64,000 nt of DNA from contig JAFLKN010000008.1 of NCBI GenBank assembly GCA_019163175.1, positions 1 to 64,000 on the forward strand, given 5' to 3'. Positions 1-31,411 of this stretch are shown in pieces (the first letter of the stretch is position 1; every line of letters starts with the position of its first letter). Origin of the DNA: Prolixibacteraceae bacterium. Its GTDB lineage: Bacteria > Bacteroidota > Bacteroidia > Bacteroidales > Prolixibacteraceae. A program made the translations under genes and the position numbers. The notes beneath the pieces were generated by a model, which was not told the origin of the DNA, ran no database searches, and worked only from the letters and a program-made list of their open reading frames with translations.

Positions 1-1417
1 TAAAGCCAAATTCTTCCTGATGCTGACGGGTCAAACGGACGCAAATTCCGCATTTGATGCACTTGGAAGGTTCGTAAACTATGCCTTCGTGATGAATAAA
101 TTTCTCCACATGAAAGCGTTCCTCACTCTGAAAGCGCTTCTGAACAGCATGATACCGGTCAGATAATTCGCGTAACACACACGACTCCGGATTACGGCAA
201 TCGCAGTGCATACAGCGTTTGGCTTCCCGAATGGCAGCTTCTTTGGTGAATCCCGAATGATCTGCCTTTTGACGCGTTGCTGTTTCCGAATCCTTTTTGT
301 ATTGAATAAACTCTGCTTCGGCCAATCTTCCGAATTTGGAATTGAACCGCTCCGGATATCCTGAAACTTTATCAGTTTTGAAATAATTATCGATGACAGT
401 TGCTACCTCTTTTCCCTGACCAACTGAACGAACTGCGAGTTTCGATGTACGAACCGAATGACCAATGGCAAAAACATTTGAAACAGAAGTTGAATGACTT
501 GTCTTTTCAACAATAATTCCCGCCTTAGTAACCTTAAGTCCGAATGCTGAACTTCCTTCCGGAACGGTTCCTGATGATACTACAACTGCATCAAACTCAT
601 TCTGTAATTCAGCAAACCGACTATTCTCAATCGGTTCATTCAAACGGATTTGAACACCAGTCGCCATAATTTGAGCAATCTCCTGTTCAACAATTTCCGT
701 TGGTAAAATTTCCTGATCAATCTGAAGCAATTCGCCGCCAGCCTTGTTATTCTTTTCGAAGACAACAGCCTGATGACCTTTAATCTGCAAATAATAAGCG
801 GCAGCTAATCCGGCAGGACCGGCACCAATAATAGCAACCTTTTTGCCTGAAAGTTCCGCCAATTGCGGCTGATAAGGACTCTCCCTTTTCAAATCTTCAT
901 CTCCCACAAATCGTTTCAGCAGACAAATCGAAACCGCTTCGTCCACCTGTTTGCGACGACAGCCTGCCTCACATGGTGCCGGACAAATTCGCCCTAAAAT
1001 AGATGGCAAAGCAATATCGCGTTTTACTACTTCCAGCGCTTTGGCAAAATCGCCTTTGGCAATCAGGCGATTCATCAGCGGAATATTCATGTGTGCCGGG
1101 CACACCAACTGGCAGGGCGCTTCACAATCGCCCACATGTTCGCTCAAAAGCAGTTCCAATGCAGCTTTCCGCGACTCGATGGTTTCCTCATCGCTGGTGA
1201 TGATGTTTTGTCCTTCAAAAACCGGAGTAGAACATGAAGCGAAAAAACGTCCGTTCTTGGCATCTTTCACCAGACAGATCATGCACGAGGAGAAATGCTC
1301 TGTTCCATCCAAATAGCACATGGTTGGAATTTCAATACCAACAGATTGAGCGGCTTTCCAGACTGAAGTGCCAGAGGGAATTTCGACGGAGCGATTATCT
1401 ATAGTTAATTTTATCAT
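1..1417 (-). CDS. NuoG/GltD-like NAD(P)/FAD-dependent Fe-S oxidoreductase subunit (N-terminal 2Fe-2S ferredoxin, GltD-type Fe-S and FAD domains, C-terminal Fe-S); C-terminus outside window
   Basis: Own reverse-strand translation from ATG at 1417 (MIKLTIDNRSVEIPSGTSVWKAAQSVGIEIPTMCYLDGTEHFSSCMICLVKD...CQLVCPAHMNIP...ICPAPCEAGCRR...VAIIGAGPAGLAAAYYL...CIKCGICV) stays open to position 1. Absent from the ORF track because it has no stop in the window. Confidence 0.88.
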   Translation of the reverse strand, partial: MIKLTIDNRSVEIPSGTSVWKAAQSVGIEIPTMCYLDGTEHFSSCMICLVKDAKNGRFFASCSTPVFEGQNIITSDEETIESRKAALELLLSEHVGDCEAPCQLVCPAHMNIPLMNRLIAKGDFAKALEVVKRDIALPSILGRICPAPCEAGCRRKQVDEAVSICLLKRFVGDEDLKRESPYQPQLAELSGKKVAIIGAGPAGLAAAYYLQIKGHQAVVFEKNNKAGGELLQIDQEILPTEIVEQEIAQIMATGVQIRLNEPIENSRFAELQNEFDAVVVSSGTVPEGSSAFGLKVTKAGIIVEKTSHSTSVSNVFAIGHSVRTSKLAVRSVGQGKEVATVIDNYFKTDKVSGYPERFNSKFGRLAEAEFIQYKKDSETATRQKADHSGFTKEAAIREAKRCMHCDCRNPESCVLRELSDRYHAVQKRFQSEERFHVEKFIHHEGIVYEPSKCIKCGICVRLTRQHQEEFGF

Positions 1418-1697: not shown

Positions 1698-4055
1698 CTA
1701 CACAATCTCCACCGCATCAACCGGGCAAACCTGCTTGCAGGCATCGCATTTGATGCAAAGGTCGGTGATGACTTCGTGCTTTTCGTGCGGCTTGAACAGA
1801 ATCGCTTCGGTTGGGCATTTCTGCGCACACTTGGTACAGCCGATGCACAAATCGTTGATCTGGTATTTAATCAGGCTTTGACATTTTCCCGACGGACATT
1901 TGCCGTTGATGTGTGCAATATATTCTTCTCTGAAATATCTCAAAGTGGATAAAATCGGGTTTGGCGCCGATTTTCCCAGACCGCACAAACTTCCCTTTTT
2001 GGTCCAGCTTGCCAGGTATTCCAGTTCGTCCAAATCTTTTTCGGAGCCTTTTCCTGTAGTAATTTTAGTCAGAATATCGAGCATTCGTTTGGTTCCAACG
2101 CGACAGAAGGTACATTTTCCGCAGGATTCATTCTGGGTAAAAGACAAGAAATAGCGGGCAATATCCACCATACAATCGTCTTCATCCAAAACCACCAATC
2201 CGCCCGAGCCCATCATGGCGCCAACTTCAAGCAGAGATTCGTAGTCTATTGAAGTATCGTACAATTGAGCAGGAACGCAACCTCCGGAAGGTCCTCCAAT
2301 CTGAACAGCCTTAAATTTTTTCCCATTCTGAACGCCACCACCAATTTCTTCCACGATCTGGCGAACTGTGATTCCCATCGGAACTTCGATCAGTCCACCA
2401 CGATTCACTTTTCCGGCCAAAGCAAAAACTTTAGTGCCCCGGCTGGTTCCGCGCCCGATTTTAGCAAACTTGTCCGATCCTTCGCGAATGATGTACGAAA
2501 CCTGTGCAAAAGTCTCGGTATTGTTGATCAGCGTAGGTTGTTTCCACAAGCCGCTCACTGCAGGAAACGGCGGACGAATCCTTGGAAATCCACGTTCACC
2601 TTCGATGGAAGCCATCATGGCCGACTCCTCGCCGCAGACAAAAGCTCCGGCACCTTCATAAATGATCATATCGAATGAGAATCCACTTCCCAAGATATTT
2701 TCGCCGAGGTAATTCTTTTCGCGGCAATAAATCAGCGCCTGACGGATGCGTTTCACCGCCAGCGGATATTCGGCACGGATATATAAAAATCCCTGTGTTG
2801 CACCAACCGCTTTGGCCGCAATGACAGCTCCCTCAATCACGCGGTATGGGTACGATTCGAGCAGCATCCGGTCCATAAAAGCGCCCGGATCGCCTTCGTC
2901 GCCATTCACAATCAGGTATTTTACATCCGATTTATTCTCGGCCACCAGACTCCATTTCAAGCCGGTTGGGAAACCGGCTCCTCCCCTTCCACGTAGTCCG
3001 CTATCGTTGACAATTTGTACAATTTCTTCGGGCGTCAATTCGGTCAGACAGGTTTTCATGGCAACAAAACCTTCGTGAGCTTTGTATTCCTCGATGTCGA
3101 GCGGATTGATAATTCCGCGATATTGGGTTGCGATCGGAATCTGGCGATCCAGAAAATCGGATACCTGCTTTTCGCGGGCATCAATTGAATATTGCTTCAC
3201 GCCATCCCAAACGGTGTCAGTTTGTACGCTCTCGAAGAACTTGTAAACGCTGTTTTTCAGCATACTGAAAGTACCCAACGGTTTAAAGTGAGTCGCAATG
3301 ATACCGGCAATATCTTCGGGTTTTACCTTCGCATACAAGGTTGATTTTTCATTCTTCGGAAACACCTCAACCAATGGAACCTGGTGACACATGCCCACAC
3401 AGCCCACATTTTTCAGGCTGATTTTGATACCGGTGTCTGCAATCGTTTCTTCCACAGCTTTTTTAACGTCCTCGCTTCCGGAAGCCACACAGCAAGAACC
3501 AAGTCCAATGCGGATTTCTCCCTGAATTTCCTGCCCGTCTACATTGCGGAACAAGCCTTTTTTTGCTCCTGAAATTCCGGCATGTTTCTCGAAATCGGCC
3601 AACACATTGCCAACTTTATCTGAAGCCACATGGCCATAGGTAATCTCATCAATCTGAACCACAGGCGCCAGAGTACAGCAACCAAGGCACGACACTTTTT
3701 CGATGGTATATTTTCGCGAAGCATCGGTTTCTTCGTGTCCGGTGAGGTTGAAATGGCGACGGAAAGCGTCGTAAACCTGACCAGCACCTTTTACATGGCA
3801 GGCCGTTCCGACACACACTTTGATGATGTGTTCGCCAACGGGCTGCATCCTGAATTGCGAATAAAACGAAGCCACCCCAACAATCTGTTCAGGAGTGATT
3901 TCGGTTTTTTCGCAAACGTATTTCAGGGCTTCCTCCGGAAGATAATTGTAGGTATTTTGAATCGCCTGTAAAATCGGAATGACGGATTTACCCTCCACAC
4001 CTTTCTCAGCGATGATCTGATCTATGGTTTGTTGTATGTTTGTTTCGTTGTTCAC
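1698..4055 (-). CDS. NuoE-NuoF fusion: NADH-binding flavoprotein subunit of a hydrogenase/formate-dehydrogenase-type complex, with C-terminal 2x[4Fe-4S] ferredoxin
   Basis: 785 aa: NuoE-like N-terminus (CVGTACHVKGAGQV...CLGCCTLAPVVQI), second thioredoxin-like 2Fe-2S (GSCCVASG...CVGMCHQVPLVEV), NuoF core (GLRGRGGAGFPTGLKW, NGDEGDPGAFMDR, ESCGKCTFCRVGTKR), ferredoxin CIGCTKCAQKCP / CIKCDACKQVCP. Confidence 0.93.
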   Translation of the reverse strand: MNNETNIQQTIDQIIAEKGVEGKSVIPILQAIQNTYNYLPEEALKYVCEKTEITPEQIVGVASFYSQFRMQPVGEHIIKVCVGTACHVKGAGQVYDAFRRHFNLTGHEETDASRKYTIEKVSCLGCCTLAPVVQIDEITYGHVASDKVGNVLADFEKHAGISGAKKGLFRNVDGQEIQGEIRIGLGSCCVASGSEDVKKAVEETIADTGIKISLKNVGCVGMCHQVPLVEVFPKNEKSTLYAKVKPEDIAGIIATHFKPLGTFSMLKNSVYKFFESVQTDTVWDGVKQYSIDAREKQVSDFLDRQIPIATQYRGIINPLDIEEYKAHEGFVAMKTCLTELTPEEIVQIVNDSGLRGRGGAGFPTGLKWSLVAENKSDVKYLIVNGDEGDPGAFMDRMLLESYPYRVIEGAVIAAKAVGATQGFLYIRAEYPLAVKRIRQALIYCREKNYLGENILGSGFSFDMIIYEGAGAFVCGEESAMMASIEGERGFPRIRPPFPAVSGLWKQPTLINNTETFAQVSYIIREGSDKFAKIGRGTSRGTKVFALAGKVNRGGLIEVPMGITVRQIVEEIGGGVQNGKKFKAVQIGGPSGGCVPAQLYDTSIDYESLLEVGAMMGSGGLVVLDEDDCMVDIARYFLSFTQNESCGKCTFCRVGTKRMLDILTKITTGKGSEKDLDELEYLASWTKKGSLCGLGKSAPNPILSTLRYFREEYIAHINGKCPSGKCQSLIKYQINDLCIGCTKCAQKCPTEAILFKPHEKHEVITDLCIKCDACKQVCPVDAVEIV

Positions 4056-4266: not shown

Positions 4267-4719
4267 TTAGTCCCATACATACCGCTCATCATATTCAACT
4301 TTATACTTCTTTAAGAATGCTCTATATTCATTCTGAAATGTCTTTTTCCCATGGTGTTCTTTCTGGTTTGAAATGTAATCAATTACAATTTCAACTTCGC
4401 TCGGATTTACTGAAAACGCCCCATATCCATCTTGCCAATAGAAATTAGAATATGCTTCTCCTTTGGTTTTTATCCATTTTGAGGAATGAGATTTTAATTC
4501 TTCCATCAGCTTGACCAATGCTATTTTCTTGGATAACATGCACAGGATATGAATATGATCAGTATGTCCACCTACCTTAATGGGTTGACACTCCAGATTT
4601 TTACAAATTCCACCCAAATAATTATGAAGTTCGTTTTCAATTACATGATCAATCAACGATTCCCTGTGTTTGGTACTAAACACGATATGGAGATAATTGG
4701 CTACGAGCGATTGTCCCAT
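4267..4719 (-). mobile_element. tnpA: IS200/IS605-type HUH (Y1) transposase, possibly RAYT-like; no tnpB
   Basis: 150 aa with HUH motif HTDHIHIL and YISNQKEHHGKKTFQNEY C-terminal motif; flanked by palindromic repeats. Confidence 0.9.
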
Positions 4720-4822: not shown

Positions 4823-6676
4823 TTAATTGCCCAGGCAGTACAAATTATTCATGCCTCGCAAATACACCTTTCCATCCGAAAATACAGGCGAGCAAACTGC
4901 TTTTTCACCCAATTCAGATGTCCCGATTAATTGATAATCTTTGGTTGCTTTTACAATATGCGTTTTGCCCGACATATCGGTGATGTAAACCTTTCCATCG
5001 GCATAAATTGGCGATGAATAAAAGGCATCACCATATTCCTGATCCCATAGTTTCTCACCGGTTTTAGCATCAATGCAGGCAAAAACACCGTAAGTTGTAG
5101 CAATAAAAACCAAACCGTTTATTGCTAAAGGGCTCGAAACTTCAGGCAAAAATTCGTCGGCTTCCCAGACAATTTCAGGAGTAGCACCTATTTTTATCCC
5201 GACCAGTTTCGCGTATTCGTTGGCCGCAAACACCATTCCGTCGGCATATCCGGCTGACGGGCCAACTTCTCCGGAAAGACAAGCAATGTTCCAAAGTTCC
5301 TTTCCGGTTTGAGGATCATACCCATTTACATTCGGATTGGTGGTCAGGATGACTTCTGTGCGGCTTCCGGTATTGACTAAAATCGGCGACGACCAGGATA
5401 TTTTTGAACTACGGGCAGTTTCCCATGCCGTAGTTCCGGTTTGCGTGTCCAAAGCCATTAATTTTCCTGAGCGGTTTGTATCGAATTGAATCAGCAACTT
5501 GTCTTTGTAAACGATCAGCGACGAACCATGTCCGTAATGATTATCAGGAACGCCCAAATTGCGCGCCCACAAACGTTTCCCGCTCATGTCCAAAGCAATT
5601 ACGTCGCCAGTGGCAAAAATGGCAAATACGGCACGACCATCAGTAGCCATGGTTGGGGCAGCCAAGCCAGTGTCGGCAGTAACTTTAGGCATGCCCGACG
5701 GCGACCCTTGTATATTGTCGGCTGCAGCTTCCCAAAGCAATTTTCCGGAGTTTTTATCGTAGCAATAAACCATGCGCGCTTGAGCATCGGCGCCAGTAAC
5801 AAACAACAGATCTCCCCAGATTATCGGTGAACTAAAACCTGACTTGGGCACTTTCACTTTCCAGACTACATTTTTACCTCCGGCACCATTCCAGTCGGTT
5901 GGTGTATTTTTTTGTGATGCAACTCCAATTCCTTCAGCGCCACGGAAAAACGGATAGTTTGCTTTCAACTCAGACTGAGTAGGTAAACCTGAAGGTTTTG
6001 GCGCAACATCTATGATAGCTGTTCCCGAAGTAGTTTCCGAGGGATTAGCCGGAGCGACAACTTCAGTAGTTACATTCTCAGTGGTGACCAGAGCAGCAGA
6101 CTGCGCAGTTTGTTCCACAGGAGCAGAAGCAAGCTCTGTACTTGCAACCTGAACTGTAGATGGATCTTCTACGGCAACAATATTTTCGTTCACCATGTAT
6201 TCTTTGAGCGAATTGGAAGATAAAAATCCGGAGACCAAAGCCAGCACAACTAATCCGGAACCAACATAAATAACCCACTTTTGAGCTACCAGTTTATCCA
6301 GCCCGGCAACCTCGTTAGCTTTGTCGATTTCATTCAGCTTCGATTTGGCCGACAATACAAAGCGAATAGCCAGTATTGAAATAATGATTCCGAGAAACAT
6401 GAGATAGCTGCCCGTACGAATTTGCCACTGACTTGTAAAATACGCTTTTCTGGCCATCAGGTCGAAAGCACGGATTTCAGCTTTCAGGGTTTCATCGCCC
6501 GGACTTTCACTCAGCCGTTTGACCAAAGCCGGAATGGTTTTGTTGTCAATCGGTTTATTCAATTTGGTCTGCACAAAGTTGGCAATTAGCAAAACAGCCA
6601 TGATCAGGGCGAATCCTGCTGCTATCCAGGCAATGCGTTGTGCCAGTTTAATTTTATCGTTTTTTGAGATGCTCAT
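4823..6676 (-). CDS. Membrane-anchored PQQ-like beta-propeller (BamB/quinoprotein-like) protein
   Basis: ORF 4823..6751; start moved to MSISKNDKIKL (6676). N-terminal TM helices, then repeated propeller blades (GKLLWEAAADN, GTTAWETARSS, GKELWNIACL, GEKLWDQEYG). No CxxCH. Confidence 0.85.
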   Translation of the reverse strand: MSISKNDKIKLAQRIAWIAAGFALIMAVLLIANFVQTKLNKPIDNKTIPALVKRLSESPGDETLKAEIRAFDLMARKAYFTSQWQIRTGSYLMFLGIIISILAIRFVLSAKSKLNEIDKANEVAGLDKLVAQKWVIYVGSGLVVLALVSGFLSSNSLKEYMVNENIVAVEDPSTVQVASTELASAPVEQTAQSAALVTTENVTTEVVAPANPSETTSGTAIIDVAPKPSGLPTQSELKANYPFFRGAEGIGVASQKNTPTDWNGAGGKNVVWKVKVPKSGFSSPIIWGDLLFVTGADAQARMVYCYDKNSGKLLWEAAADNIQGSPSGMPKVTADTGLAAPTMATDGRAVFAIFATGDVIALDMSGKRLWARNLGVPDNHYGHGSSLIVYKDKLLIQFDTNRSGKLMALDTQTGTTAWETARSSKISWSSPILVNTGSRTEVILTTNPNVNGYDPQTGKELWNIACLSGEVGPSAGYADGMVFAANEYAKLVGIKIGATPEIVWEADEFLPEVSSPLAINGLVFIATTYGVFACIDAKTGEKLWDQEYGDAFYSSPIYADGKVYITDMSGKTHIVKATKDYQLIGTSELGEKAVCSPVFSDGKVYLRGMNNLYCLGN

Positions 6677-6727
6677 TATATTTTGAAAATAGATTTTAGT
6701 TGTACTATTCTTATCAACTATCATGTT

Positions 6728-6848
6728 ATTCCGTCCGAAACTTGTTCTCATCTTTTCTCAACAATTTCCCGCGGACGAGTCTTCATGTTTTCATTTTTCC
6801 CGGGGCTTCACCCCGGGTTACCAATATTTCGCTCCTAACGGAGCAAAA
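6728..6848. repeat. Composite intergenic repeat, copy A: TATTCCGTCCGAAA...GCGGACG plus CCCGGGGCTTCACCCCGGG-TTACCAATATTTC-GCTCCTAACGGAGC
   Basis: Same modular order and spacing as 9085-9205. Confidence 0.75.
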
Positions 6849-6903
6849 AACATATTCTTACAAGCCTCAATCTGGAACTTGAAACCTGAAACTTGAAACT
6901 CTT

Positions 6904-8184
6904 TTACTCTTTCTTCACCGGGCAATAATCCATGCAGCGTGCACAGCTCAAGCAATTGGTTTTGTTTGGTTCCCAGTCGATACGTCTCCTGAAAGTTGAT
7001 AAATTAATCAGGCTTGTTCCGATGACCAATCCCATGAAACCGCCCAGCAACCAACCACCCAAATAGAACTGACGACGAATGGCATCGGCTTCCTGCACCA
7101 ATTGTTCTGTCGATTTTCCGGAGCTCATAAAGGTGCGGACATCAATATTTTTAGCGTCATTCTTTACTTCAGGATGTTCCACAATTTGCTCAGCCAGATA
7201 AACAGTCTGATTAAATCTGGACAACGGAACATGCATCATCGAACCGGCAAATCCGCCAATACCAATCCACAAAGGTAAAAGCACAAAATAAGTCATCAGC
7301 CGATTGACATTGCTGCGACGTTTTCCGGTTTCAGCAACAGGTTCGTCGATTGCACCAAACGGGCACGAATTGGAACACAATTTACATTGGATACATGCTG
7401 CCGGTGTGATGGTCATGTGGCGTGATGAAAACTTCGACATCCAACCCAGCAAAACGCCATACGGACAGAAGAACCGACAATACGGACGAGCAACAAACAC
7501 GCCAACTGCCAGAAATAAGATTCCAAGAATTAACATGTTGTATGGCGCATCGAACCGAAACAAACCAACAAACGGATCGTACCGGCAAATGATGAATTCA
7601 GATTTGGTGGCCACATACAAAACGGCCAACCCGAGGTATAAATACGGAATTAAACCCAGCACTTTCTGAATCCATTTAGGCAATTCGATGGGTCTCAAAA
7701 CCACAATATCCTGAATGGCTCCAAGCGGGCAGGCTCCTGCACAGAAGGTTCTTCCGAAGAAAAGTGAAAAAACAAGTGGCAACAGGAAAAACAATAAGGC
7801 AGTAAGCGGAATGGCGTAAGTTGGATCGACAATTCCCAAAACTACATTTTGAATAGAACCGATAGAACAGATGCAACCTTCGCGGTAAAAACCGAAATAC
7901 AACAGGGAAAATACCGAAGTCCAGAAAACACCTTTCCGGGAACGCTTTTTTAGCACAAACCAGGTAACTACCGATAGAACAACCAGTAAAATCAACACAT
8001 CCAGGTATTCCAGAAATATCATCCGGGGCGAGGCTGCGGTGGTTTGAGGCTGCATATAACCCGAATCAAATTCAGGTTTTGGGAACCGCTGTTTGGCATC
8101 GGCAGCAAAAGTCTGAATCGCTCCGAAAAGCAGTATCGAAATCAGTAGAAAATATCTTTTAAGTTGGCTCATATTTAGTTTCAA
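6904..8184 (-). CDS. Polytopic 4Fe-4S binding protein, NapH/NosR-like
   Basis: 426 aa; several TM segments; FCAGACPLGAIQD, YCRFFCPYGVLLGW, CIQCKLCSNSCPFGAID, CLSCARCMDYCP. Confidence 0.88.
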   Translation of the reverse strand: MKLNMSQLKRYFLLISILLFGAIQTFAADAKQRFPKPEFDSGYMQPQTTAASPRMIFLEYLDVLILLVVLSVVTWFVLKKRSRKGVFWTSVFSLLYFGFYREGCICSIGSIQNVVLGIVDPTYAIPLTALLFFLLPLVFSLFFGRTFCAGACPLGAIQDIVVLRPIELPKWIQKVLGLIPYLYLGLAVLYVATKSEFIICRYDPFVGLFRFDAPYNMLILGILFLAVGVFVARPYCRFFCPYGVLLGWMSKFSSRHMTITPAACIQCKLCSNSCPFGAIDEPVAETGKRRSNVNRLMTYFVLLPLWIGIGGFAGSMMHVPLSRFNQTVYLAEQIVEHPEVKNDAKNIDVRTFMSSGKSTEQLVQEADAIRRQFYLGGWLLGGFMGLVIGTSLINLSTFRRRIDWEPNKTNCLSCARCMDYCPVKKE

Positions 8185-8248
8185 GTTTCAAATTCGTGGG
8201 TTCAACAGCTGACTTTCTCTGACAACTGCGACTGTGACTGCCCACTCT

Positions 8249-8854
8249 TTATCCCTTTTTCAAATTATCCTTACTACTTCCGCCTTTGGTAAACCCACCT
8301 TTTATCAGATAAGGCGTATCTGCAGGAACACGTTGAAAAGCATCCGCTGGACAAACCCTCGCGATGGAACAATCGTTGCAGTTTTTGCACAAATCGTGAC
8401 GCACTTGCAAATGCAGCGAACCGTTTCCGAAAGAAGTACAACCGGCAACACATTTGGCACAACCGATGCACAAATCTTCATCGATGACATATTCGAAATA
8501 TGGTTCTTCAATATACTGGCGTTTGATTGCCGCTGTCGGGCAAAGCTGATTCTCAGCGGCTGTAGTCCGGGCATTGGCATCGGGTTTCAAATAGCCCCCA
8601 CATAAATCGCAATAACCACACAAATCGTAGGCATGTACACATTTTACAGCAGATGGTGTCATCACACATTCATCGGCACAACGACCACACTGCACACATT
8701 TAAACGGATCGAGCTGCCACACCAGATCCTTCGAAGTCGATTTCAGGAGCGAAACACCAGCTACACCACCAAGCGAAACAGCAAGTGCCATCTGCATTCC
8801 GCTTCGCAGAAACCGACGTCGTTCGATGCTTTTGGGTTCTTTCTTATCGCTCAT
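8249..8854 (-). CDS. Tat-exported multi-[4Fe-4S] ferredoxin, NapG-like
   Basis: 201 aa; Tat motif ERRRFLRSGMQMALAVSLGG; CVQCGRCADEC, CGYCDLCGG, CIGCAKCVAGC, CKNCNDCSIARVCP. Confidence 0.87.
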   Translation of the reverse strand: MSDKKEPKSIERRRFLRSGMQMALAVSLGGVAGVSLLKSTSKDLVWQLDPFKCVQCGRCADECVMTPSAVKCVHAYDLCGYCDLCGGYLKPDANARTTAAENQLCPTAAIKRQYIEEPYFEYVIDEDLCIGCAKCVAGCTSFGNGSLHLQVRHDLCKNCNDCSIARVCPADAFQRVPADTPYLIKGGFTKGGSSKDNLKKG

Positions 8855-9074
8855 CTTCCTTGTATTTTTTAGCCTTATCCAGCGAACAAGCTGTTAGTTT
8901 CTGGCATTTTTTGCAAAATTGATTATCGGCACAACCCTCCAACTGAACACGGTTTTCGGCAAGCAGATAAGCCGAACCGCCGATCATAGCCGACAGAAAA
9001 GTAAGCTGTGCTGCTTTTCTGAAAAAGTCTCTCCGGTTGGTTTTATTATCATTCATTTTCATCTTTCTTTTCAA
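8844..9074 (-). CDS. Small Tat-signal Cys-rich protein of unknown function
   Basis: 76 aa; NRRDFFRKAAQL twin-arginine motif; mature part has GCADNQFCKKCQKLTACS; overlaps the start of the NapG-like gene by 11 bp. Confidence 0.75.
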   Translation of the reverse strand: MKRKMKMNDNKTNRRDFFRKAAQLTFLSAMIGGSAYLLAENRVQLEGCADNQFCKKCQKLTACSLDKAKKYKEDER

Positions 9075-9084
9075 GGTTTTATCT

Positions 9085-9205
9085 ATTCCGTCCGAAATAT
9101 GGAATCGCCATTTTTAAAATTGTCACGCGGACGGGTTTTCGTTTCCTCCTAATTCCCCGGGGTTGAAACCCCGGGCTACCAATATTTCGCCCCGATGGGG
9201 TGATA
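9085..9205. repeat. Composite intergenic repeat, copy B: TATTCCGTCCGAAA...GCGGACG plus CCCGGGGTTGAAACCCCGGG-CTACCAATATTTCG-CCCCGATGGGG
   Basis: Direct comparison with copy A at 6728-6848. Confidence 0.75.
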
Positions 9206-9249
9206 AGATTCAATCAGGGTTCAAGTCTCCTTTCGTTTTTCCTTTTCCT

Positions 9250-10215
9250 CTATTCCTTTTTCTTTTCAAAAATACGTACCTGTTGCTTGGTGAAATCAAG
9301 GGCAATTACCCGGTGTTGCTTGTCGACTGCAATATCAGGTGCCAGTGATCCACTGAATGCATCGGGAGGAGCCACAACTCCAATGAATTGCCCGTGCTGA
9401 TCGTACAATTTAATCCGAGGCATTCCTTTTTCGCTAGTGATGAATGAATTATCTTCCAGAATTGCAAAATGCGCAGGATTACAGCAACCGCTAAATCCTT
9501 CAATTTTGAAACTGGTTAGGCCCCATGATGTCCGCAGCGAGCCATCCTCATTATAATTTTCGAATACATGACGACCTGTATTTGCTGCCCATAAAAAGCC
9601 ATTATCGTCAATCGCCACATCGAAATACGGACTTGGGATCACAAATCCGGATATCCCTTTTTGGTCATTCTGCTCTCCAATTTTCTGAACAATTTGACCA
9701 TTGGTATTGCACTGATAGACAATCCGATTTCCGGCATCGGCCACGTAAATATTTTCGCCGGAAACAGCCAGCGAAGTGAATAATGCCCGGTCACCAAAAG
9801 AATTCCAGCGTTTAACCAGTGTGCCATTTTGATCATACATCACAACATAATCGCTTATCCCGATCCAAATCTGGCGATTTTCATCAATAGCCACGCAGGA
9901 CACGGTGTCAATCAATTGTTTACTGAAGATTTGCTTCCCTGAATAATCGAATTTCAGCAAATGATTGTCGGTAGCTACTACAATTGTAGAATCTGATACT
10001 GCAACTCCAGCCCAATCGTGAACTTTAACCGGGAAATGAGTCTTTTCGAAATACAGAATCTTCGTGGAATCTACTTTTCGATATTCATCGATATTATATT
10101 CATATGGATTTTCGATGTTTTTACCGGCTTTCTTTCCAATAAAATCCTTGCCAATAATGACGACAATGGCCACAGCCAAAACGATCAGCACAATATTTAC
10201 CAGTTTCCGGTTCAT
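9250..10215 (-). CDS. Membrane-anchored NHL-repeat beta-propeller protein
   Basis: ORF 9250..10239, start moved to MNRKLVNIVLIVLAVAIVVII (10215); NHL-type repeats (YVADAGNRIVYQ, LWAANTGRHVFENY, SEKGMPRIKLYDQHGQFIGVV). Confidence 0.8.
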   Translation of the reverse strand: MNRKLVNIVLIVLAVAIVVIIGKDFIGKKAGKNIENPYEYNIDEYRKVDSTKILYFEKTHFPVKVHDWAGVAVSDSTIVVATDNHLLKFDYSGKQIFSKQLIDTVSCVAIDENRQIWIGISDYVVMYDQNGTLVKRWNSFGDRALFTSLAVSGENIYVADAGNRIVYQCNTNGQIVQKIGEQNDQKGISGFVIPSPYFDVAIDDNGFLWAANTGRHVFENYNEDGSLRTSWGLTSFKIEGFSGCCNPAHFAILEDNSFITSEKGMPRIKLYDQHGQFIGVVAPPDAFSGSLAPDIAVDKQHRVIALDFTKQQVRIFEKKKE

Positions 10216-10220
10216 AGCTT

Positions 10221-11639
10221 TTAATTTACTTTCACACAATACATCTTTTTCGCATCACGCAACATTAAAAATCCATCGGCCAATGCCATTGGACCCCAGG
10301 CGTCTTCACCATCAAACAGCTTTTTCTGTGCTATCTGAATGTACTTTTTTGTGTCGGGTTTAATCATAGTCAGCGTACCGTCGTCGCTCAGCACAAATAG
10401 TTTATTATCAGCAATCAGGTATGGGCCAAGTCCAAAACGGCCATCCTTTCCTGAAGTCCAGATTACCTTAGTGACATCCGCCGGATCGACGCAAATCAAC
10501 TGATTGCGCAATGGGCCGGCGTCTTTGGGTTCAATGGCGAGCATCTTTCCGTCCCAAATTACAGGAGTTTGCTGTTCGCAAGCCATCCCTTCCTTCGGGA
10601 GGTATTGTTTCAAAACCTCAACTTTATATTCTGCTCCTGAAGGAGTTACCTGAATCATCATACTTCCGGCGCCATAACCAGCCGTTAGAAACACTTTTCC
10701 ATCCGGAAAACAAACCGGTGCCGGAGCCACAACCGCATGATTCCAGGCTGTTGATTGCCAAAGAATTTTACCTTCGTCGGCACCTTCGGCAGAAACGGCC
10801 AGAACGGCTCCAACCGCGCTGTACACATACATTTTCTTGCCATTCAGTGTCCAAGGCATAATCGATGAATGCGACATTTTAATTCCGCCCGGATTAGGCG
10901 TTTCCCACAAAACTTTGCCTGTAGCCATATCAACCGCAATCATTACTGAAGTTCCACCCGGAGCCAAAATTGCTTTATTACCATCGATCATCGGGCATTG
11001 ACCAGTAAACCACAAAGGCACTTCGGTCTGATATTTCAGAACCATGTCGAGACCCCAAACTAAGTCGCCGCTTTCGCGCTTTACACACATCACATGACAA
11101 CGTGGGCCTATCGTGAGAATGTATTCCGGATTAATGGCCGGAACCGTGCGCGACATTCCATGATTTCGTTTGACACTCAATTTATAGGATCGTCTCCAAA
11201 GCTCTTTGCCATCTTCGAGTGAAAAACATCGCAGGGCATCTTCGCGTTTGACCTCGTCATAATCCATCACATATACTTTTCCTTCGTAAATGGCTGGCCC
11301 GGCATGACCTTCACCCAGCTCAACCGACCATTTAATTTCAGGATCGTTGCCTGCCCAACTGTTTTTTAGGGGGCCGGTATTCTTTACAATATTGTCGTAA
11401 TCAGCACCACGGAAACGAGTCCATGTTCCTTTTAAGCTGGAAGTTGTAGTTCCGAAGGATTCGAATTTTTCGCCAATATTAACCACCTGAACAGAAGCAG
11501 AATCAGCACCCCCGCGGTTATCCGCTCCTGGAATACTTTCAGCAAACTGGCTGGTTGGGTCTTTCATCAGCCACCAGAAAAAGAGGAGCAACAAAATTGC
11601 ACCGATGCCCAACAAGATATATTTGATGTTCTTTTCCAA
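10221..11639 (-). CDS. Membrane-anchored PQQ-like beta-propeller protein
   Basis: 472 aa; N-terminal TM (YILLGIGAILLLLFFWWL), blades GKELWRRSYKLS, GKVLWETPNPG, GKILWQSTAW. Confidence 0.85.
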   Translation of the reverse strand: MEKNIKYILLGIGAILLLLFFWWLMKDPTSQFAESIPGADNRGGADSASVQVVNIGEKFESFGTTTSSLKGTWTRFRGADYDNIVKNTGPLKNSWAGNDPEIKWSVELGEGHAGPAIYEGKVYVMDYDEVKREDALRCFSLEDGKELWRRSYKLSVKRNHGMSRTVPAINPEYILTIGPRCHVMCVKRESGDLVWGLDMVLKYQTEVPLWFTGQCPMIDGNKAILAPGGTSVMIAVDMATGKVLWETPNPGGIKMSHSSIMPWTLNGKKMYVYSAVGAVLAVSAEGADEGKILWQSTAWNHAVVAPAPVCFPDGKVFLTAGYGAGSMMIQVTPSGAEYKVEVLKQYLPKEGMACEQQTPVIWDGKMLAIEPKDAGPLRNQLICVDPADVTKVIWTSGKDGRFGLGPYLIADNKLFVLSDDGTLTMIKPDTKKYIQIAQKKLFDGEDAWGPMALADGFLMLRDAKKMYCVKVN

Positions 11640-11719: not shown

Positions 11720-12964
11720 CTAATTTTTAAGCTTGTAAACCATTAAACTTTCGCCATGACGGACAAACAGCTTACCATTATAAATTGAAGGATGCGCCCA
11801 ATGAGGTCCTGAACCTTTTTGTATTTTGAGGGAGCTAACCAATTCAAATTTTTCCGGATTCGGTTTTACCAACCCAATATTTCCGGATTTATCTTCGTAA
11901 CAATAAAGCATTCCGTCGGCTGAAATGATAGAGCCTTTAGTGAACCACTTGGTTTCCCAATTGGTTTTGCCTGTCTCCCAGTTAACAGAAGCCCAGTTCC
12001 CATTGGCATTGTCAATCATAGTTGAAGCATAAATATTTCCATCAATCAACACCAATCCTCCAATATGGGTATCAAGAATATCGCTTTGCCATTTCAGCTG
12101 AATTGAACGGCCATCTTCGGCGAGACTAAACATGGAACCTTTCTGTTCGTTGCCATAAGTTACAAATAGTTTTCCGTTGCTATACAAAGAAATATTGGCT
12201 GACTCACCTTTCCCTTTGTGATCACCGTGGTATTGACTCAGATTGTAAGTCCATAAAATTTGCCCATTACTCACATCAACACCAACAAGATCTTCAGAAG
12301 TTTGAACAAGTACAATCCGAAGTCCGCTTCGTTCGATAAGAGATGCTGAAGCATAGGCTTTCTCTCCACCTACACTTTTTGATTTCCATATTAACTCGCC
12401 ATTTTGTTTATTCAAAGCAACCAGTGTTGTTTCGTCGCCACCGGTTACATACAAAACCTTGTTATCAGCCAGCAATGCCGACTCCACTACACCAAACCAC
12501 ATGTGCTTTCCACTGAATTCAATGTGTGGATTTTTCGACCAAACAATAGCCCCATTTGTGGCATTCATGCAAACCAGATCGCCAGTACCGCCAACAAGGT
12601 AAATCCTATTGTTTTCGATGGTTGGTGTACAACGTGAGCCAGGGTAAGTTTTATTCCATGCCTTGCTGTAATCCTTTTTCCAGACTAAGTTTCCCTTGAG
12701 ATCAATTGCTGAAATAAAATTTACACTATCGTGTGTGCCTGTCACATAAATAACATCGTGATAAAGAACTGGTGATGAATAACCTTCACCAAGTCCATCA
12801 ACTTCAAGTATAATTTTAGGACCATTTTCAGGCCATACAGTCAAAAGACCCTTTTCTGGATAAATACCTGAACGATTTAGGCCCCGCCACTCAACCAAAT
12901 CCTGAGAAAACAGGTTACCTGAAAGAAGAACTGTAAGCAACAAGCTTATGAATAATCTCATCAT
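11720..12964 (-). CDS. Exported PQQ-like beta-propeller protein (paralogue 1 of 3)
   Basis: 414 aa; signal peptide; VEWRGLNRSGIYPE, GLGEGYSSPV, HWAHPSIYNGKLFVRHGESLMVYKL. Confidence 0.85.
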   Translation of the reverse strand: MMRLFISLLLTVLLSGNLFSQDLVEWRGLNRSGIYPEKGLLTVWPENGPKIILEVDGLGEGYSSPVLYHDVIYVTGTHDSVNFISAIDLKGNLVWKKDYSKAWNKTYPGSRCTPTIENNRIYLVGGTGDLVCMNATNGAIVWSKNPHIEFSGKHMWFGVVESALLADNKVLYVTGGDETTLVALNKQNGELIWKSKSVGGEKAYASASLIERSGLRIVLVQTSEDLVGVDVSNGQILWTYNLSQYHGDHKGKGESANISLYSNGKLFVTYGNEQKGSMFSLAEDGRSIQLKWQSDILDTHIGGLVLIDGNIYASTMIDNANGNWASVNWETGKTNWETKWFTKGSIISADGMLYCYEDKSGNIGLVKPNPEKFELVSSLKIQKGSGPHWAHPSIYNGKLFVRHGESLMVYKLKN

Positions 12965-12980
12965 CGAATTACTGTATTAA

Positions 12981-14219
12981 CTATGCTTTGATAGTATAGA
13001 CAAACAAAACATCGCCGTGACGTAAATACAGCTTGCCGTTTGCAATAAATGGATGCGACCAGAACGGACCATTTCCTCCCTGCAATTTGAAAGAACTGAC
13101 CATGTCAAAACTATTTTGATCGGGTTTCACCAAAGCTACAGTTCCTGTTTTTTCTTCCAGAATATAAAACAAGCCATCAGCATAAACCAGCGCACCTTTT
13201 GTAAGCCATTCCGTTTCGTATTTTATATCTCCTGAATTCCAATCCATGCAAACCCACTTGCCTTTGCTGTTGCTTTGCCAGTTTGAACCGTAAATGTTAC
13301 CATCCAATTCAATCAAACCGTGGTGATGGTTGTCCAGAGTCATATTGCTCCATTTTTCGGTGGCCGATTTTCCGTCTTCGCTCATGGTTACCATCACATT
13401 CCGGTAATCGTAACCCATCGAAATAAAAATATCACGTCCTTTAACAACAGGTGTGTTAGCCCATATCAAACCTGGCTGATCCCATTTGGCACCATCCCAG
13501 TATTTGAAAGTCCAAACAACTTTCCCGGTAACCGGTTCGAGGGCTATCAGATTGGTTCCGGTTGCAGCTAAAATATATCTGAATTGATTGTACTCGTATA
13601 TGATTGGCGATACATAGCAACGTGGGCCACCAACCGATTCGCTTTGCCAAACCAGTTTTCCGGTCATTTTATCGAAAGCGACGACCGAAGTTTTTGCTCC
13701 GCCTGGAGTACAAATCACTTTATCGTCCACAATCAGCGGCGATTCTGAAACTCCCCAAATGTGCCAGTCAGCACTAAAATCTTTATCAACATTCACTTTC
13801 CAACGAATAGCACCATCCGAAACATTCAGACAAACCAGTTCGCCTGTTCCACTGATAATGTAAACACGATCGTCTTCGATAGTAGGAGTGCTGCGTGTAT
13901 CGGGAAATGATTTCACCCATGAACGGCCATAAGCCACTTTCCATTTGATCTGACCTTCGGGAGTGATACACGAAAGGTAATCGAGCGTATCAATCATTCC
14001 TGTTGCAAAAATAAACTTATCAGTTGCCACTACCGAAGAATATCCTTTGCCTATTCCTTCAACTTTCAATAGTAATTCAGGACCGGCATCCGGCCATTTC
14101 TTTAGTAATCCGGTATCGGTAAATTTACCATCGCGGTTCGCACCGCGCCATTGTGACGGTTGTGCTGCAACGATTAAAACAAGTAAGAAGAATGTAATTG
14201 ATAGATTTATCTGTTTCAT
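12981..14219 (-). CDS. Exported PQQ-like beta-propeller protein (paralogue 2 of 3)
   Basis: 412 aa; signal peptide; SQWRGANRDGKF, GIGKGYSSVV, FWSHPFIANGKLYLRHGDVLFVYTI. Confidence 0.85.
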   Translation of the reverse strand: MKQINLSITFFLLVLIVAAQPSQWRGANRDGKFTDTGLLKKWPDAGPELLLKVEGIGKGYSSVVATDKFIFATGMIDTLDYLSCITPEGQIKWKVAYGRSWVKSFPDTRSTPTIEDDRVYIISGTGELVCLNVSDGAIRWKVNVDKDFSADWHIWGVSESPLIVDDKVICTPGGAKTSVVAFDKMTGKLVWQSESVGGPRCYVSPIIYEYNQFRYILAATGTNLIALEPVTGKVVWTFKYWDGAKWDQPGLIWANTPVVKGRDIFISMGYDYRNVMVTMSEDGKSATEKWSNMTLDNHHHGLIELDGNIYGSNWQSNSKGKWVCMDWNSGDIKYETEWLTKGALVYADGLFYILEEKTGTVALVKPDQNSFDMVSSFKLQGGNGPFWSHPFIANGKLYLRHGDVLFVYTIKA

Positions 14220-14278: not shown

Positions 14279-14860
14279 CTATTTACTAATTTCCAGAGCC
14301 TTTAATAGGTTTTCAGTTGTAATTACAGTGGCAAATTCGTCCATTAGACTGGCAATTGCAGTTTCATGAATAATTTCGGCTGAATATAGTTGTCCTTTTG
14401 TGCCTTTCTTGCAAAAAGTTGCAGTTGCATCTTCAACCAAGAAAGTATCAAATCCAAAATTTCCTGCCATTCTAGTGGTGGTCGAAACGCAATGATCGGT
14501 GGTTAAACCTATAATTACAAGTTTTGTGATATTCGTGAATTCAAGTCTCTCTTTCAGATCAGTTCCTATAAAAGCACTGTTTACATTTTTTTTGATAATG
14601 ACTTCCCCTTCAATTGGCTCTACAATGTCCTTAAACTCATTTCCGGGTTGACCTTCGGCAAGTCTCGAATTTGGATTTGAAGAGCAATGTTTCGCATGAA
14701 AGACCGGTAATCCCATTTTTCGCCAAAATGCCAGCAATTTACCGGCATTCTGTTCAGCTTCAGGATTATTTCTATCACCGCCCCAATAGTTTATGTCATC
14801 GAAACCCTTTTGGATATCAATGAGAATGAGTGCCGGATTATCATTTACTGAAATGCTCAT
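14279..14860 (-). CDS. Isochorismatase-family cysteine hydrolase
   Basis: ORF 14279..14893, start moved to MSISVNDNPALILIDIQKGF; KLVIIGLTTDHCVSTTTRMAGNFGFDTFLVEDA is the family signature. Confidence 0.9.
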   Translation of the reverse strand: MSISVNDNPALILIDIQKGFDDINYWGGDRNNPEAEQNAGKLLAFWRKMGLPVFHAKHCSSNPNSRLAEGQPGNEFKDIVEPIEGEVIIKKNVNSAFIGTDLKERLEFTNITKLVIIGLTTDHCVSTTTRMAGNFGFDTFLVEDATATFCKKGTKGQLYSAEIIHETAIASLMDEFATVITTENLLKALEISK

Positions 14861-14870
14861 TTTCAATTTT

Positions 14871-16085
14871 TTATTGCGAAATTTTATAGGCAATCAATGT
14901 ATTTCCGTGACGCACATAAAGCACACCCTTATCGATTACCGGATGTGCCCAATGTTGTTCTGAACCAAGAGTTACTTTTGTTTTGCTGATTACTTTTAAT
15001 CCTGAAGGGAAAGCATTTGCCATAAATAAATCTCCCTTTTCAGAATAGCCAATCAAGGTTTTATTTGCAGCAATAGTTACACCTTTGGCAACTTCGGTAG
15101 ACGAATATTCCTGTTTACCTGTATTCCAGTTTATACATTGCCAGCTACGGCCATTATCGCCCGAGCCATACATAAAACCGTCAATCAAAACAGCACCACC
15201 CATGCGGCTATCGAAGCTTTTGATGTCCCATTCCTTAGTTACCGAGCTTCCATCAGCACTCAGTTTAAGCTTTTCTCCCCCCTGGCCATATCCGCTGAAA
15301 ACAAATAAGCCACCATCACTGTATATTGGGGTGTTGGGATGAACTGCCCACTGATTTGGATGTTCGAAACTCCAAAGTAATTTTCCACTTGTGGCATCTA
15401 TTCCCAAAACATGGCCAGCAGTATGAGTTACCAACAGCTGACGAGCAGGTAATTTGATCAGAATTGGAGAGCAATAAGCTGATAATTCACCTAATCCGGG
15501 ACAATTCCAGATGGTCTCTCCGGTTAAACGATTCAATGCCATTACATTATTGGTTTTTCCACCGGGAGTACAAAATAGCTTATCACCATCAATCAGCAAA
15601 GATTCGGTATATCCCCATGTAATGTTGATTCCATCCATTTGTGTCAGAAAATCCTTTTCCCAAACAGGTTTTCCGGTTTTCAGATCGAGGCAGGTTAGTT
15701 TTCCATGACCTGTTATTAGATAAGCCAGATCGCCAACAATTGTCGGGGTTGAGCGCGTTCCCGGGAAACTTGCATCAAACTCTTTTCCATAAGTAAACTG
15801 CTGAAGTTGTTTGCCATTCTGATCAAGCACAAATAATACGGCTTGTCCATCAACCATCCCGTTGATGTATATTCTATCGTTGGCAAATGCAGGTGACGAA
15901 AAGCCTTGTCCCAATTTATCAAAGGTCCAAATAACAAGAGGGCCTTCGGCTGGCCATTCTGGCAAAAGTTTATCAACGTTGTAAATTCCGGTAGAATTGG
16001 CTCCACGCCATTTGGTTGCTTCCTGTGCATTAGACTCAAGGAAAAGGCAGGCAAATAAAATTACAAATACAGATAATAGTTTCAT
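14871..16085 (-). CDS. Exported PQQ-like beta-propeller protein (paralogue 3 of 3)
   Basis: 404 aa; signal peptide; TKWRGANSTGIYN, KLGQGFSSPA, HWAHPVIDKGVLYVRHGNTLIAYKI. Confidence 0.85.
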   Translation of the reverse strand: MKLLSVFVILFACLFLESNAQEATKWRGANSTGIYNVDKLLPEWPAEGPLVIWTFDKLGQGFSSPAFANDRIYINGMVDGQAVLFVLDQNGKQLQQFTYGKEFDASFPGTRSTPTIVGDLAYLITGHGKLTCLDLKTGKPVWEKDFLTQMDGINITWGYTESLLIDGDKLFCTPGGKTNNVMALNRLTGETIWNCPGLGELSAYCSPILIKLPARQLLVTHTAGHVLGIDATSGKLLWSFEHPNQWAVHPNTPIYSDGGLFVFSGYGQGGEKLKLSADGSSVTKEWDIKSFDSRMGGAVLIDGFMYGSGDNGRSWQCINWNTGKQEYSSTEVAKGVTIAANKTLIGYSEKGDLFMANAFPSGLKVISKTKVTLGSEQHWAHPVIDKGVLYVRHGNTLIAYKISQ

Positions 16086-17660: not shown

Positions 17661-18656
17661 CTATAATCCAGCATAGATAAGCATTCCTATACCTACAAAA
17701 AACAGAATAAACATAGTCGCTAAAAGTCCGGAGGTTCCTTTTGAACCCTTAAACTCTTTCCAGATAAAAACACCCCACATAGCAGCTACCAAAGTTGCGC
17801 CCTGTCCCAACCCATACGAAATTGCGAAGCCTGCTTTTCCTGCTGCTATTATGCTGAAGGTCATTCCTACACACCAGATCATTCCGCCCAGAATACCAGT
17901 GAAGTGTTCTTTCAGGCTTCCTGCAAAATATTGGGAATAGGTAACCGGAACTCCCTCGAAAGGCTTTTTCATCAGGAGGGTATTGAAAACGAAGTTACTG
18001 ATCAGAATCCCGACAGAAAAGATAAATACAGCCGTATATGGTGTTAGCAATCCGGGTTCTGGAGTTTCGAAATTTGTGACCATTGAACTGGCCACAAACC
18101 GATAGAAAAGGGCCATCATAATTCCACCAACCACAGACAATACAATGCCTTTAGTTGGAACTTTCTGCGACTGCGAAGATTTCTTTTTGTAAGCTACAGC
18201 ATCGAGTACAATTGCAAGGGTAATCACGATTACCCCAGTAAATAACCAGATTGCATTTCCCTGTGGATTGGCCATGTAATTAACTAAAACTCCCAAGACC
18301 AAAGCAATCCCGATTCCGACAGGAAAAGCAACAGACATCCCGGCTATTGAAATGGCAGCTGCAACCAAAATATTGGCGGCATTAAAAATAATTCCACCAA
18401 GTAAGGCATTACCAATATTGCTCATTTCTGCCTGACTAAGGTCAGCCAAAAAGCCACGTCCCTGTTCTCCTGTACTTCCCAAAGTCAAAGAAAAAATAAG
18501 AGACATCAGGAGAATGCCAATCACATAATCCCAGTAGAACAGTTCGAAACGCCATGACTTTTGAGCTAATTTTTGGGTATTGGCCCACGAACCCCAACAC
18601 AACATGGTTACGAAACAAAGAATAACGGCTAATGAATAGGAACTTACGATATACAT
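17661..18656 (-). CDS. GRP/EamA-type sugar (ribose/nucleoside-linked) transporter
   Basis: 331 aa, ~10 TM; AVILCFVTMLCWGSWANTQKL; next to nucleoside hydrolase and ribokinase. Confidence 0.8.
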   Translation of the reverse strand: MYIVSSYSLAVILCFVTMLCWGSWANTQKLAQKSWRFELFYWDYVIGILLMSLIFSLTLGSTGEQGRGFLADLSQAEMSNIGNALLGGIIFNAANILVAAAISIAGMSVAFPVGIGIALVLGVLVNYMANPQGNAIWLFTGVIVITLAIVLDAVAYKKKSSQSQKVPTKGIVLSVVGGIMMALFYRFVASSMVTNFETPEPGLLTPYTAVFIFSVGILISNFVFNTLLMKKPFEGVPVTYSQYFAGSLKEHFTGILGGMIWCVGMTFSIIAAGKAGFAISYGLGQGATLVAAMWGVFIWKEFKGSKGTSGLLATMFILFFVGIGMLIYAGL

Positions 18657-18689
18657 GGCTATAGTTTAATGGTTAATTGTCGATGTTTG

Positions 18690-19682
18690 TTATTTTGGTT
18701 CGTAAAGCATTAAATCGTCCAAAATATCGGCGATTTTCTGATATGGATATTTGTGAACGAGGAAAGAATGATTCGAATTTTTATCCGGATTCCAGATATT
18801 CGAACCATTTGCGTTGCAAACAAAAGTTCCGTTTCCAATCACATAAAAATAGTTTTCAGGATTTCGAACTGCACACAAAACAGCCGTGTGATCCCACGAA
18901 TTTCGATTTGAAGTTTTTTTGCCTTCGTAGTTCGACAAACAATATTCGTAAGCCCACTGAACCGGACTACCTTTTGTCCCCTGAGTAGCTACTTTGCTGC
19001 CTGTCATTATCTTGACTCCGATTTCAAAGCCACTAAAAAGAATTGCAGTCGGCCAATTTTGAAATACATATTCCGAAGCTTTCGGATGTTGATTCACATT
19101 AAATTCATTTCCTTCCAGAAATCCACCAGCCATAGCAACCCATTTTTTCACCTTTTTTGCCACGAGTTCTTTCCCTGAAAGCTTACTGAATTGATCAGGC
19201 CCAGATTTTAAAAGGGGTTCAAGGTTGGAAAGAAAGCCAACAGTTACAATTACCACACTCCCATCGGGCTGCGAGGAAAGCACTTTCCTGTATACTTCAG
19301 TAGCTGAAGGATAATCTTTGTTGGTTTTTAGTTTGGGGAGATATTTAACTGTCAATGAATCGTTCCAATGATTTGGGCAGGAGAATTTTGGCGCATCAGA
19401 TCCTGGAACGCCAATAGGAATATTTGGTTTCTGAAAATAACGGTTAAAAACTTCTAAAGTCGGAGCAATGTATGGATAACCATCACTGGCCATAGTTGCC
19501 AAAATTTCACATTCTCCCTTGGCCGCCAAAGCGTGAAGAATTGTAATCGCACCAACATCGTCAAAATCGGGCCCCATGTCGGTATCAAAAATGATTTTAA
19601 CCGGTGATTTCTGAGCCGAAGTAGTTTGATGAAAACCAAACAACAGATTAAGTGTAATTATGAGAAAAAATGAATGTTTCAT
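18690..19682 (-). CDS. Exported nucleoside hydrolase (IUNH family)
   Basis: 330 aa; signal peptide then KIIFDTDMGPDFDDVGAI. Confidence 0.88.
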   Translation of the reverse strand: MKHSFFLIITLNLLFGFHQTTSAQKSPVKIIFDTDMGPDFDDVGAITILHALAAKGECEILATMASDGYPYIAPTLEVFNRYFQKPNIPIGVPGSDAPKFSCPNHWNDSLTVKYLPKLKTNKDYPSATEVYRKVLSSQPDGSVVIVTVGFLSNLEPLLKSGPDQFSKLSGKELVAKKVKKWVAMAGGFLEGNEFNVNQHPKASEYVFQNWPTAILFSGFEIGVKIMTGSKVATQGTKGSPVQWAYEYCLSNYEGKKTSNRNSWDHTAVLCAVRNPENYFYVIGNGTFVCNANGSNIWNPDKNSNHSFLVHKYPYQKIADILDDLMLYEPK

Positions 19683-19689
19683 GTGTCAA

Positions 19690-19775
19690 CAATTAAGTCA
19701 TTAGGTTGTCATTAATAGTCATTTAGTTGTCTTTGTGGGTCCTCAATTGGCATTAAATGACAACTAATGACGCAA
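19690..19775. repeat. Intergenic imperfect direct/inverted repeats of GTCATT(T)AGTTGTC
   Basis: GTCATTAGGTTGTC, GTCATTTAGTTGTC and the inverse GACAACTAATGAC. Confidence 0.55.
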
Positions 19776-19778
19776 AGC

Positions 19779-22301: not shown

Positions 22302-22430
22302 AGGAAGGTTAAGTTAGTGAACCAAATTTAACAGTTCTTTATTAAATTGATACCACTAACCTGTAATTTAAACCTTCATTCAACTGATTCAGGCAAAAAA
22401 CAAGAAAACACTAAAAATTACCAATTATTT

Positions 22431-23093: not shown

Positions 23094-23132
23094 AAGTTGG
23101 TAATTTAAAAACTTAAAGATAACTTTTCGATA

Positions 23133-24380: not shown

Positions 24381-24406
24381 GAGTTTAATTGGTTTGATGA
24401 TTTGTT

Positions 24407-25573: not shown

Positions 25574-25578
25574 TGTTT

Positions 25579-27658: not shown

Positions 27659-27677
27659 AGTGCAAATATTTAATTCG

Positions 27678-29636: not shown

Positions 29637-29639
29637 TTC

Positions 29640-31316: not shown

Positions 31317-31385
31317 ATCCGGATTCAGAATTCAGCATGTGAAATCTGAGTTGTTAAATATAAGTGATTTGAAAGGAATAATGAA

Positions 31386-31411
31386 GTAAGAGCCTGTTTC
31401 CAGGCCCTTAC
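31386..31411 (-). promoter_or_regulatory. GNRA-capped mRNA hairpin in the susD-sialidase intergenic gap (candidate processing/attenuation element)
   Basis: Minus strand GTAAGGGCCTG-GAAA-CAGGCTCTTAC: 11-bp stem with one G-U and a GAAA loop. Confidence 0.65.

Follow-up and report, generated by a model that had tools for sequence, protein, structure and literature searches.

The window analysed here, a stretch of 64,000 nucleotides from a Prolixibacteraceae bacterium (assembly GCA_019163175.1, contig JAFLKN010000008.1, positions 1 to 64,000), opens contig C9 of a 5.9 Mb genome (designated G000) whose closest relatives are Prolixibacteraceae of the phylum Bacteroidota. Near its start lies a group of genes for membrane-bound and exported iron-sulphur (Fe-S) proteins and propeller proteins, whose possible role in electron transfer across the membrane is the subject of this report. 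A sequence-only reading had singled out six consecutive same-strand genes at 4823-11639, and all six were found on the minus strand at these positions. The genes are real, but the unit had been drawn too narrowly: they make up just the central part of a conserved operon of greater length, which continues with a fused BfuC-BfuB gene (BfuCB) and a BfuA gene on one side and with three genes for secreted propellers on the other (Table 1).

Table 1. Genes of the conserved operon in the window (aa, amino acids; TM, transmembrane; Tat, twin-arginine translocation; PQQ, pyrroloquinoline quinone; ORF, open reading frame; FMN, flavin mononucleotide; FAD, flavin adenine dinucleotide)
Gene product	Position	Strand	Features
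BfuA-like Fe-S protein, truncated at the contig end (relatives ~520 aa)	1..1417	-	N-terminal [2Fe-2S], Fer4_20 clusters, FAD Rossmann fold without NADPH domain, C-terminal [4Fe-4S]
Fused BfuC-BfuB (NuoE-like + HydB/NuoF-like), 785 aa	1698..4055	-	Putative NAD(H)/FMN and ferredoxin-side core, all Bfu-specific ligands
PQQ642, 642 aa	4823..6751	-	Three N-terminal TM helices and BamB/PQQ-like propeller; true start possibly further inside, most relatives having 570-650 aa
NapH-like polytopic Fe-S protein, 426 aa	6904..8184	-	Two CX3CP, one CX2CX2CX3CP, extra C-terminal CX2CX2CX3CP
Tat polyferredoxin, 201 aa	8249..8854	-	17 conserved Cys, room for four [4Fe-4S]
Tat Cys4 miniprotein, 76 aa	8844..9074	-	Invariant C-x5-C-x2-C-x5-C; 11-base overlap with next gene
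NHL propeller	9250..10215	-	One N-terminal TM anchor; invariant GCCNP vicinal cysteines C252-C253; ORF to 10239 (329 aa)
PQQ472, 472 aa	10221..11639	-	BamB-like propeller, one TM anchor; very strongly conserved
PQ414, secreted BamB-like propeller	11720..12964	-	In conserved upstream set
PQ412, secreted BamB-like propeller	12981..14219	-	In conserved upstream set
PQ404, secreted BamB-like propeller	14871..16085	-	First gene of conserved set

Scanning the NapH-like protein against the GTDB genomes yielded 197 relatives, and the best 80 of these belonged nearly all to Bacteroidota (including Prolixibacteraceae, Labilibaculum, Saprospiraceae, Lewinellaceae and Cyclobacteriaceae), two being from Chlorobiota. 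Gene maps from many Bacteroidota families revealed the same order, namely one to four secreted propellers, PQQ472, NHL, the Cys4 miniprotein, the polyferredoxin, the NapH-like protein, PQQ642, fused BfuC-BfuB and BfuA, which is usually followed by a further propeller of ~370 aa (31 of 37 loci). Counting only those loci whose contig permits the test, the neighbour was kept in 79/80 cases for NHL, 67/70 for PQQ472, 58/61 for the secreted propeller, 82/85 for PQQ642, 71/75 for BfuCB and 59/66 for BfuA; several of the polyferredoxin misses listed in these counts are due to overlapping ORF starts. Across 148 genomes of the taxonomic order, each family being represented by one or two, polyferredoxin and NHL propeller occurred in the identical 26 genomes with zero discordant cases, and among 398 genomes drawn from the whole phylum neither was found outside G000; these figures are inflated by relatedness, nonetheless absence is widespread within the same order. 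The short BfuA gave full-length matches in ~20 of the 26 genomes, shorter or fragmentary ones in several others of them and none outside, where the BfuA query matched mainly ~1240-aa Stn/Nfn-like proteins (residues ~2-284 only) or GltD-like proteins. Thus, the families do occur together elsewhere and in conserved order. Plasmid carriage of the locus was searched for and none was found.

Some loci contain additional genes in or beside the operon. In the window a 150-aa transposase-like gene (PHROG transposase match, 4267-4719) lies between PQQ642 and BfuCB, and similar genes are situated in or next to the operon in loci L032, L073, L085 and L110, so the locus seems to take such insertions repeatedly. 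An isochorismatase-family hydrolase (14279-14893) separates two of the secreted propellers, a placement shared only by certain close relatives (L034, L040, L066, L070). In other families, but not in the genus of the window, three genes often lie 3' of BfuA (L114, L116, L118, L121, L122, L126): one for a glycosyltransferase whose start is of a conserved GSGG.FYC.NC.RD type, one for an ATP-binding cassette (ABC) ATPase and one for a long permease resembling FtsX.

The gene at 1698-4055 contains the Pfam domains PF01512, PF10531, PF10589, Fer4 and PF01257, which correspond to the NuoF FMN, SLBB, NuoF 4Fe-4S, C-terminal ferredoxin and NuoE domains, and among PDB entries it is most closely related to NfnB, StnB and the HydB subunits of bifurcating enzymes. 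What defines the Bfu family is an unvarying BfuBC core that holds FMN and six Fe-S clusters (PMC9304861). For comparison, 22 BfuBs from the locus were aligned with 22 further Bfu proteins of Bacteroidota and with four NuoF proteins of complex I. Residues A392, M394, C593, C720 and C725 together with eight C-terminal cysteines (C737-C777) were present in 22/22 locus sequences and the same positions were kept in nearly all of the other Bfu proteins, while in the NuoF proteins they hold T, K, I/L/F and otherwise hardly anything but gaps. A maximum-likelihood tree placed the 22 locus BfuBs in one clade (support 100/100, branch length 0.59) apart from the hydrogenase and Nfn types, and other Bfu copies, some of them from the same genomes, fell outside it. 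Judged by these sequence features, the cytoplasmic genes are members of the Bfu family of electron-bifurcating enzymes. The same proteins might also be wired together without any bifurcation, as a plain NADH- or ferredoxin-linked conduit feeding low-potential electrons into the periplasm (or draining them), bifurcation having been deduced solely from conserved ligands; we consider this unlikely, since all tested Bfu-specific FMN-pocket residues and the B- and C-cluster ligands, which are absent from non-bifurcating NuoF (criteria of PMC9304861), have been kept.

BfuA, composed of Fer2_4, Fer4_20 and a C-terminal Fe-S domain, could be aligned to StnC and NfnA in its [2Fe-2S] and GltD-type part. 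The ~150 residues that would align to StnC 288-441 are gone (query residues 284 to 292 span StnC 287 to 442), and with them the NADPH domain; the NuoG-like C-terminus of StnC and NfnA is absent as well. BfuA of L114, L116 and L117 also lacks the FAD domain, yet retains the Fe-S ligand cysteines that all complete sequences have in common. As these three copies nest within the locus clade, the loss of the FAD domain is secondary and the flavin dispensable. A protein that dispenses with its NADPH domain, and in some lineages with its FAD domain, while keeping its Fe-S ligands looks like an Fe-S wire, and NADPH is unlikely to be the third substrate. Compared with Nfn-Bfu/Stn enzymes (StnABC of Sporomusa; NfnABC, PDB 9n5u; PMC10482914, PMC9304861), the likeness covers the BfuCB core with its FMN and cluster ligands and, in BfuA, the N-terminal [2Fe-2S] region followed by the GltD-type Fe-S and FAD fold; the differences are the domain losses just described and the connection with an Fe-S protein of the membrane and with carriers in the periplasm. 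An identity as Nfn-Bfu/Stn transhydrogenase was rejected on account of the missing NADPH domain, and one as FeFe-Bfu because BfuA has no PF02906 H-cluster domain. A hydrogenase accessory locus was likewise dismissed, as the downstream gene is not HydA, which is encoded elsewhere in the genome. Separate Nfn-Bfu loci do exist in Bacteroidota, in some genomes alongside the operon: tblastn matches joining NuoE- and HydB-like frames were seen beside ~1240-aa Stn/Nfn-like BfuA genes in L138, L144 and L145 (genomes G496, G046 and G575).

The membrane side of the locus had been described as NapH/NapG-like. The resemblance exists, but the 426-aa protein scored 45.3 bits with the NapH model TIGR02163 against a cut-off of 213.05, and 8249-8854 gave no match to the NapG/MauM model at E <= 0.001. 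TM segments were assigned by hydropathy, and the topology of the NapH-like protein was predicted from the charge distribution over 80 sequences, in which its cysteines are 97-100% conserved. The positive-inside pattern suggests that a first segment resembling a signal sequence is followed by about seven more TM segments, the CX3CP motifs and both the central and the added C-terminal CX2CX2CX3CP being predicted on the cytoplasmic side, C104/C106 and C200 on the periplasmic side. Such a predicted arrangement would suit the passage of electrons between BfuA and a periplasmic polyferredoxin. Both the 201-aa and the 76-aa proteins have twin-arginine motifs, and TatC was found in 9/9 genomes carrying the locus (G000 and eight others). 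In common with the NapGH/MauMN/NosR-PceC systems (PMC8238504), the locus has a polytopic CX3CP protein with cytoplasmic Fe-S motifs and a Tat polyferredoxin as its partner (NapG in those systems); it differs by its score below the NapH cut-off, its predicted total of about eight TM segments, its extra C-terminal Fe-S motif and the lack of a recognised terminal oxidoreductase. A role in Nap or Nos maturation was discarded, since curated models were not reached and no reductase is present, and so was an ApbE-flavinylated NapH-like system, as Pfam scans of the locus detected no FMN-binding domain.

The sequence-only reading had proceeded from NapGH-type relay of electrons from quinol. In its present form this would mean that electrons from menaquinol enter the NapH-like protein and reach the periplasmic propellers by way of the polyferredoxin, BfuABC being a co-regulated but separate soluble enzyme. 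In Nap, NapH is the subunit presumed to bind quinone (PMC8238504), the NapH-like protein resembles it, and in a few genomes the Bfu genes lie apart or on other contigs. Against this, BfuA has neither the NADPH site of its relatives nor another recognisable substrate site and so needs an electron partner, most loci have the Bfu genes after the membrane module, and the NapH-like protein has gained a conserved Fe-S motif at its cytoplasmic C-terminus. The two cytoplasmic genes that had been overlooked place the inner entry or exit of electrons at NAD(H) and probably ferredoxin, so the quinol-fed scheme is no longer the best one, and we regard it as rather unlikely.

Cysteine conservation was determined in 25-80 aligned relatives per family. 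In the polyferredoxin 16 of 17 cysteines are invariant and one is conserved at 99% (74 sequences), all four of the miniprotein are invariant in 45 sequences, and the same holds for C252-C253 of NHL in 66 sequences and for Cys138, 215, 383 and 468 of PQQ472, where Cys185 reaches 98% (64 sequences). These near-invariant patterns, as well as that of the NapH-like protein, agree better with sites for metals or redox chemistry than with structural filler. Cysteine conservation and a gene order that recurs in dozens of loci make a pattern far beyond chance. No CxxCH haem motif occurs in the six proteins, as had been noted, or in their aligned relatives.

The translation start of NHL is probably at 10215 (conserved Met9) and not at 10239. 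Predicted models of NHL (predicted local distance difference test, pLDDT, 89.5) and PQQ472 (pLDDT 88.8) were used in fold searches, which returned generic NHL/TRIM and virginiamycin B lyase matches for the former, giving no functional lead, and BamB as best match plus tetrathionate hydrolase for the latter, giving no substrate. The propellers share the BamB-like fold with PQQ quinoproteins, BamB and tetrathionate hydrolase, but they match no known active site and reach no PQQ_DH family cut-off; with the quinoprotein model TIGR03075 their highest score was 77 bits, the cut-off being 480. Consequently, PQQ enzymes were rejected as their identity (a pqqC search in 28 genomes was also empty, as it was in the control genomes), and so was thiosulphate/tetrathionate chemistry, for which the sole hint was a fold similar to that of tetrathionate hydrolase (13-15% identity). 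Another role for the propellers, in place of that of substrate enzymes, would be that of chaperone-like BamB relatives in a periplasmic thiol-reducing or assembly/repair system, where electrons reduce the vicinal cysteines of NHL or Cys pairs of the propellers. The invariant Cys-Cys of NHL, the BamB match of PQQ472 and the glycosyltransferase and ABC/FtsX transporter genes after the operon in several families, which hint at envelope biogenesis, are in accord with this. Thiol reduction does not need a low-potential bifurcating core with ferredoxin, however, and the locus contains no thioredoxin-fold or DsbD-like partner, which makes such a system improbable in our judgement.

With moderate confidence, we favour, for this gene cluster of anaerobic Bacteroidota, a Bfu-family enzyme that conducts its third half-reaction across the membrane into the periplasm, coupling NAD(H) and ferredoxin to or from an extracytoplasmic partner. 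Conservation of the cysteines and of the operon, predicted topology and co-occurrence agree in pointing to a conserved locus that moves electrons across the membrane to or from propeller-type partners, as had been proposed. More tentatively, with somewhat less than an even chance, it may be a haem-free complex, bifurcating or confurcating, that oxidises or reduces its third substrate beyond the cytoplasmic membrane by way of BfuCB, a BfuA serving Fe-S transfer only, the NapH-like protein, the polyferredoxin and the propellers. In the favoured reading BfuCB would exchange electrons with NAD(H) at FMN and, by homology, with ferredoxin at its C-terminal clusters, and BfuA would carry them between BfuCB and the NapH-like protein, with which it may be physically coupled. 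Standing in place of a hydrogenase or NADPH site, the NapH-like protein would take the third half-reaction across the membrane and pass electrons, in either direction, to or from the polyferredoxin and the miniprotein; these would exchange them with the anchored propellers NHL (through its vicinal cysteines), PQQ472 and PQQ642 and with the secreted propellers, which might dock or process the extracytoplasmic substrate. Because the known third substrates of Bfu enzymes are H2, formate, NADPH and aldehydes (PMC9304861), the potential of this substrate would be expected between those of ferredoxin and NADH, at roughly -400 mV.

Several observations weigh against the favoured reading. The cytoplasmic and membrane parts are encoded apart in a few genomes (G575, G515, L124), the Bfu genes sometimes being on other contigs, and a search for fusion proteins joining the two parts found none, so that the two may not be united in a single complex. 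The case for bifurcation comes from the ligands, and no catalytic subunit for the third substrate is recognisable in the locus. G000 also has a separate [FeFe]-hydrogenase HydA adjoining a HydB on contig C29. A Cys4 ORF stands between NHL and the polyferredoxin in 76/84 loci; the miniprotein, which BLAST often misses, was not found in the other eight and is thus not essential everywhere. In its favour, the distances of the families correlate at 0.85-0.96, a figure uncorrected for the species tree.

In the literature searched, from which subscription journals were mostly absent, neither a homologous locus with an assigned function nor a description of a locus combining NapH, propellers and bifurcation was found. 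The nearest concept is that of the membrane-bound Mbh-Bfu and Nuo-Bfu enzymes that Schut et al. 2022 predicted (PMC9304861), which likewise consist of BfuABC and integral membrane subunits with a third reaction predicted at the membrane; they use membrane parts of group 4 hydrogenase or complex I, whereas the locus uses the NapH-like protein, the Tat polyferredoxin and propellers. The third substrates listed in that work react in the cytoplasm or at the membrane, its main text mentions neither NapH, periplasm nor propellers, and 17 BfuB clades were left in it without assigned function. The locus is a clear Bfu clade with a concrete set of partners, and may already be numbered, without function, in the supplementary tables of that paper. 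If the proposal holds, it would be, to our knowledge, the first haem-free tie of bifurcation chemistry to the periplasm, and it offers a testable role for periplasmic PQQ-like and NHL propellers that have had no known function. Since there are cultured carriers (Labilibaculum, Mariniphaga, Sunxiuqinia, Mangrovibacterium and Gaoshiqia), the question is open to bench work.

Elsewhere in the window, an apparently complete sialic-acid utilisation locus (21393-37555) comprises SusC/SusD, a BNR sialidase, GH20, a GDSL esterase, a NanA-like dihydrodipicolinate synthase (DHDPS) family protein, a NanM-like epimerase, an N-acetylglucosamine (GlcNAc) 2-epimerase, a major facilitator superfamily (MFS) transporter, a PfkB kinase and a GntR regulator. 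A small salvage-like set at 17661-21377 consists of adjacent genes for a ureide-permease family transporter, a nucleoside hydrolase and an ADP-ribosylglycohydrolase, and an ArsP-family permease with a C-terminal heavy-metal-associated domain is encoded at 38156-39478.

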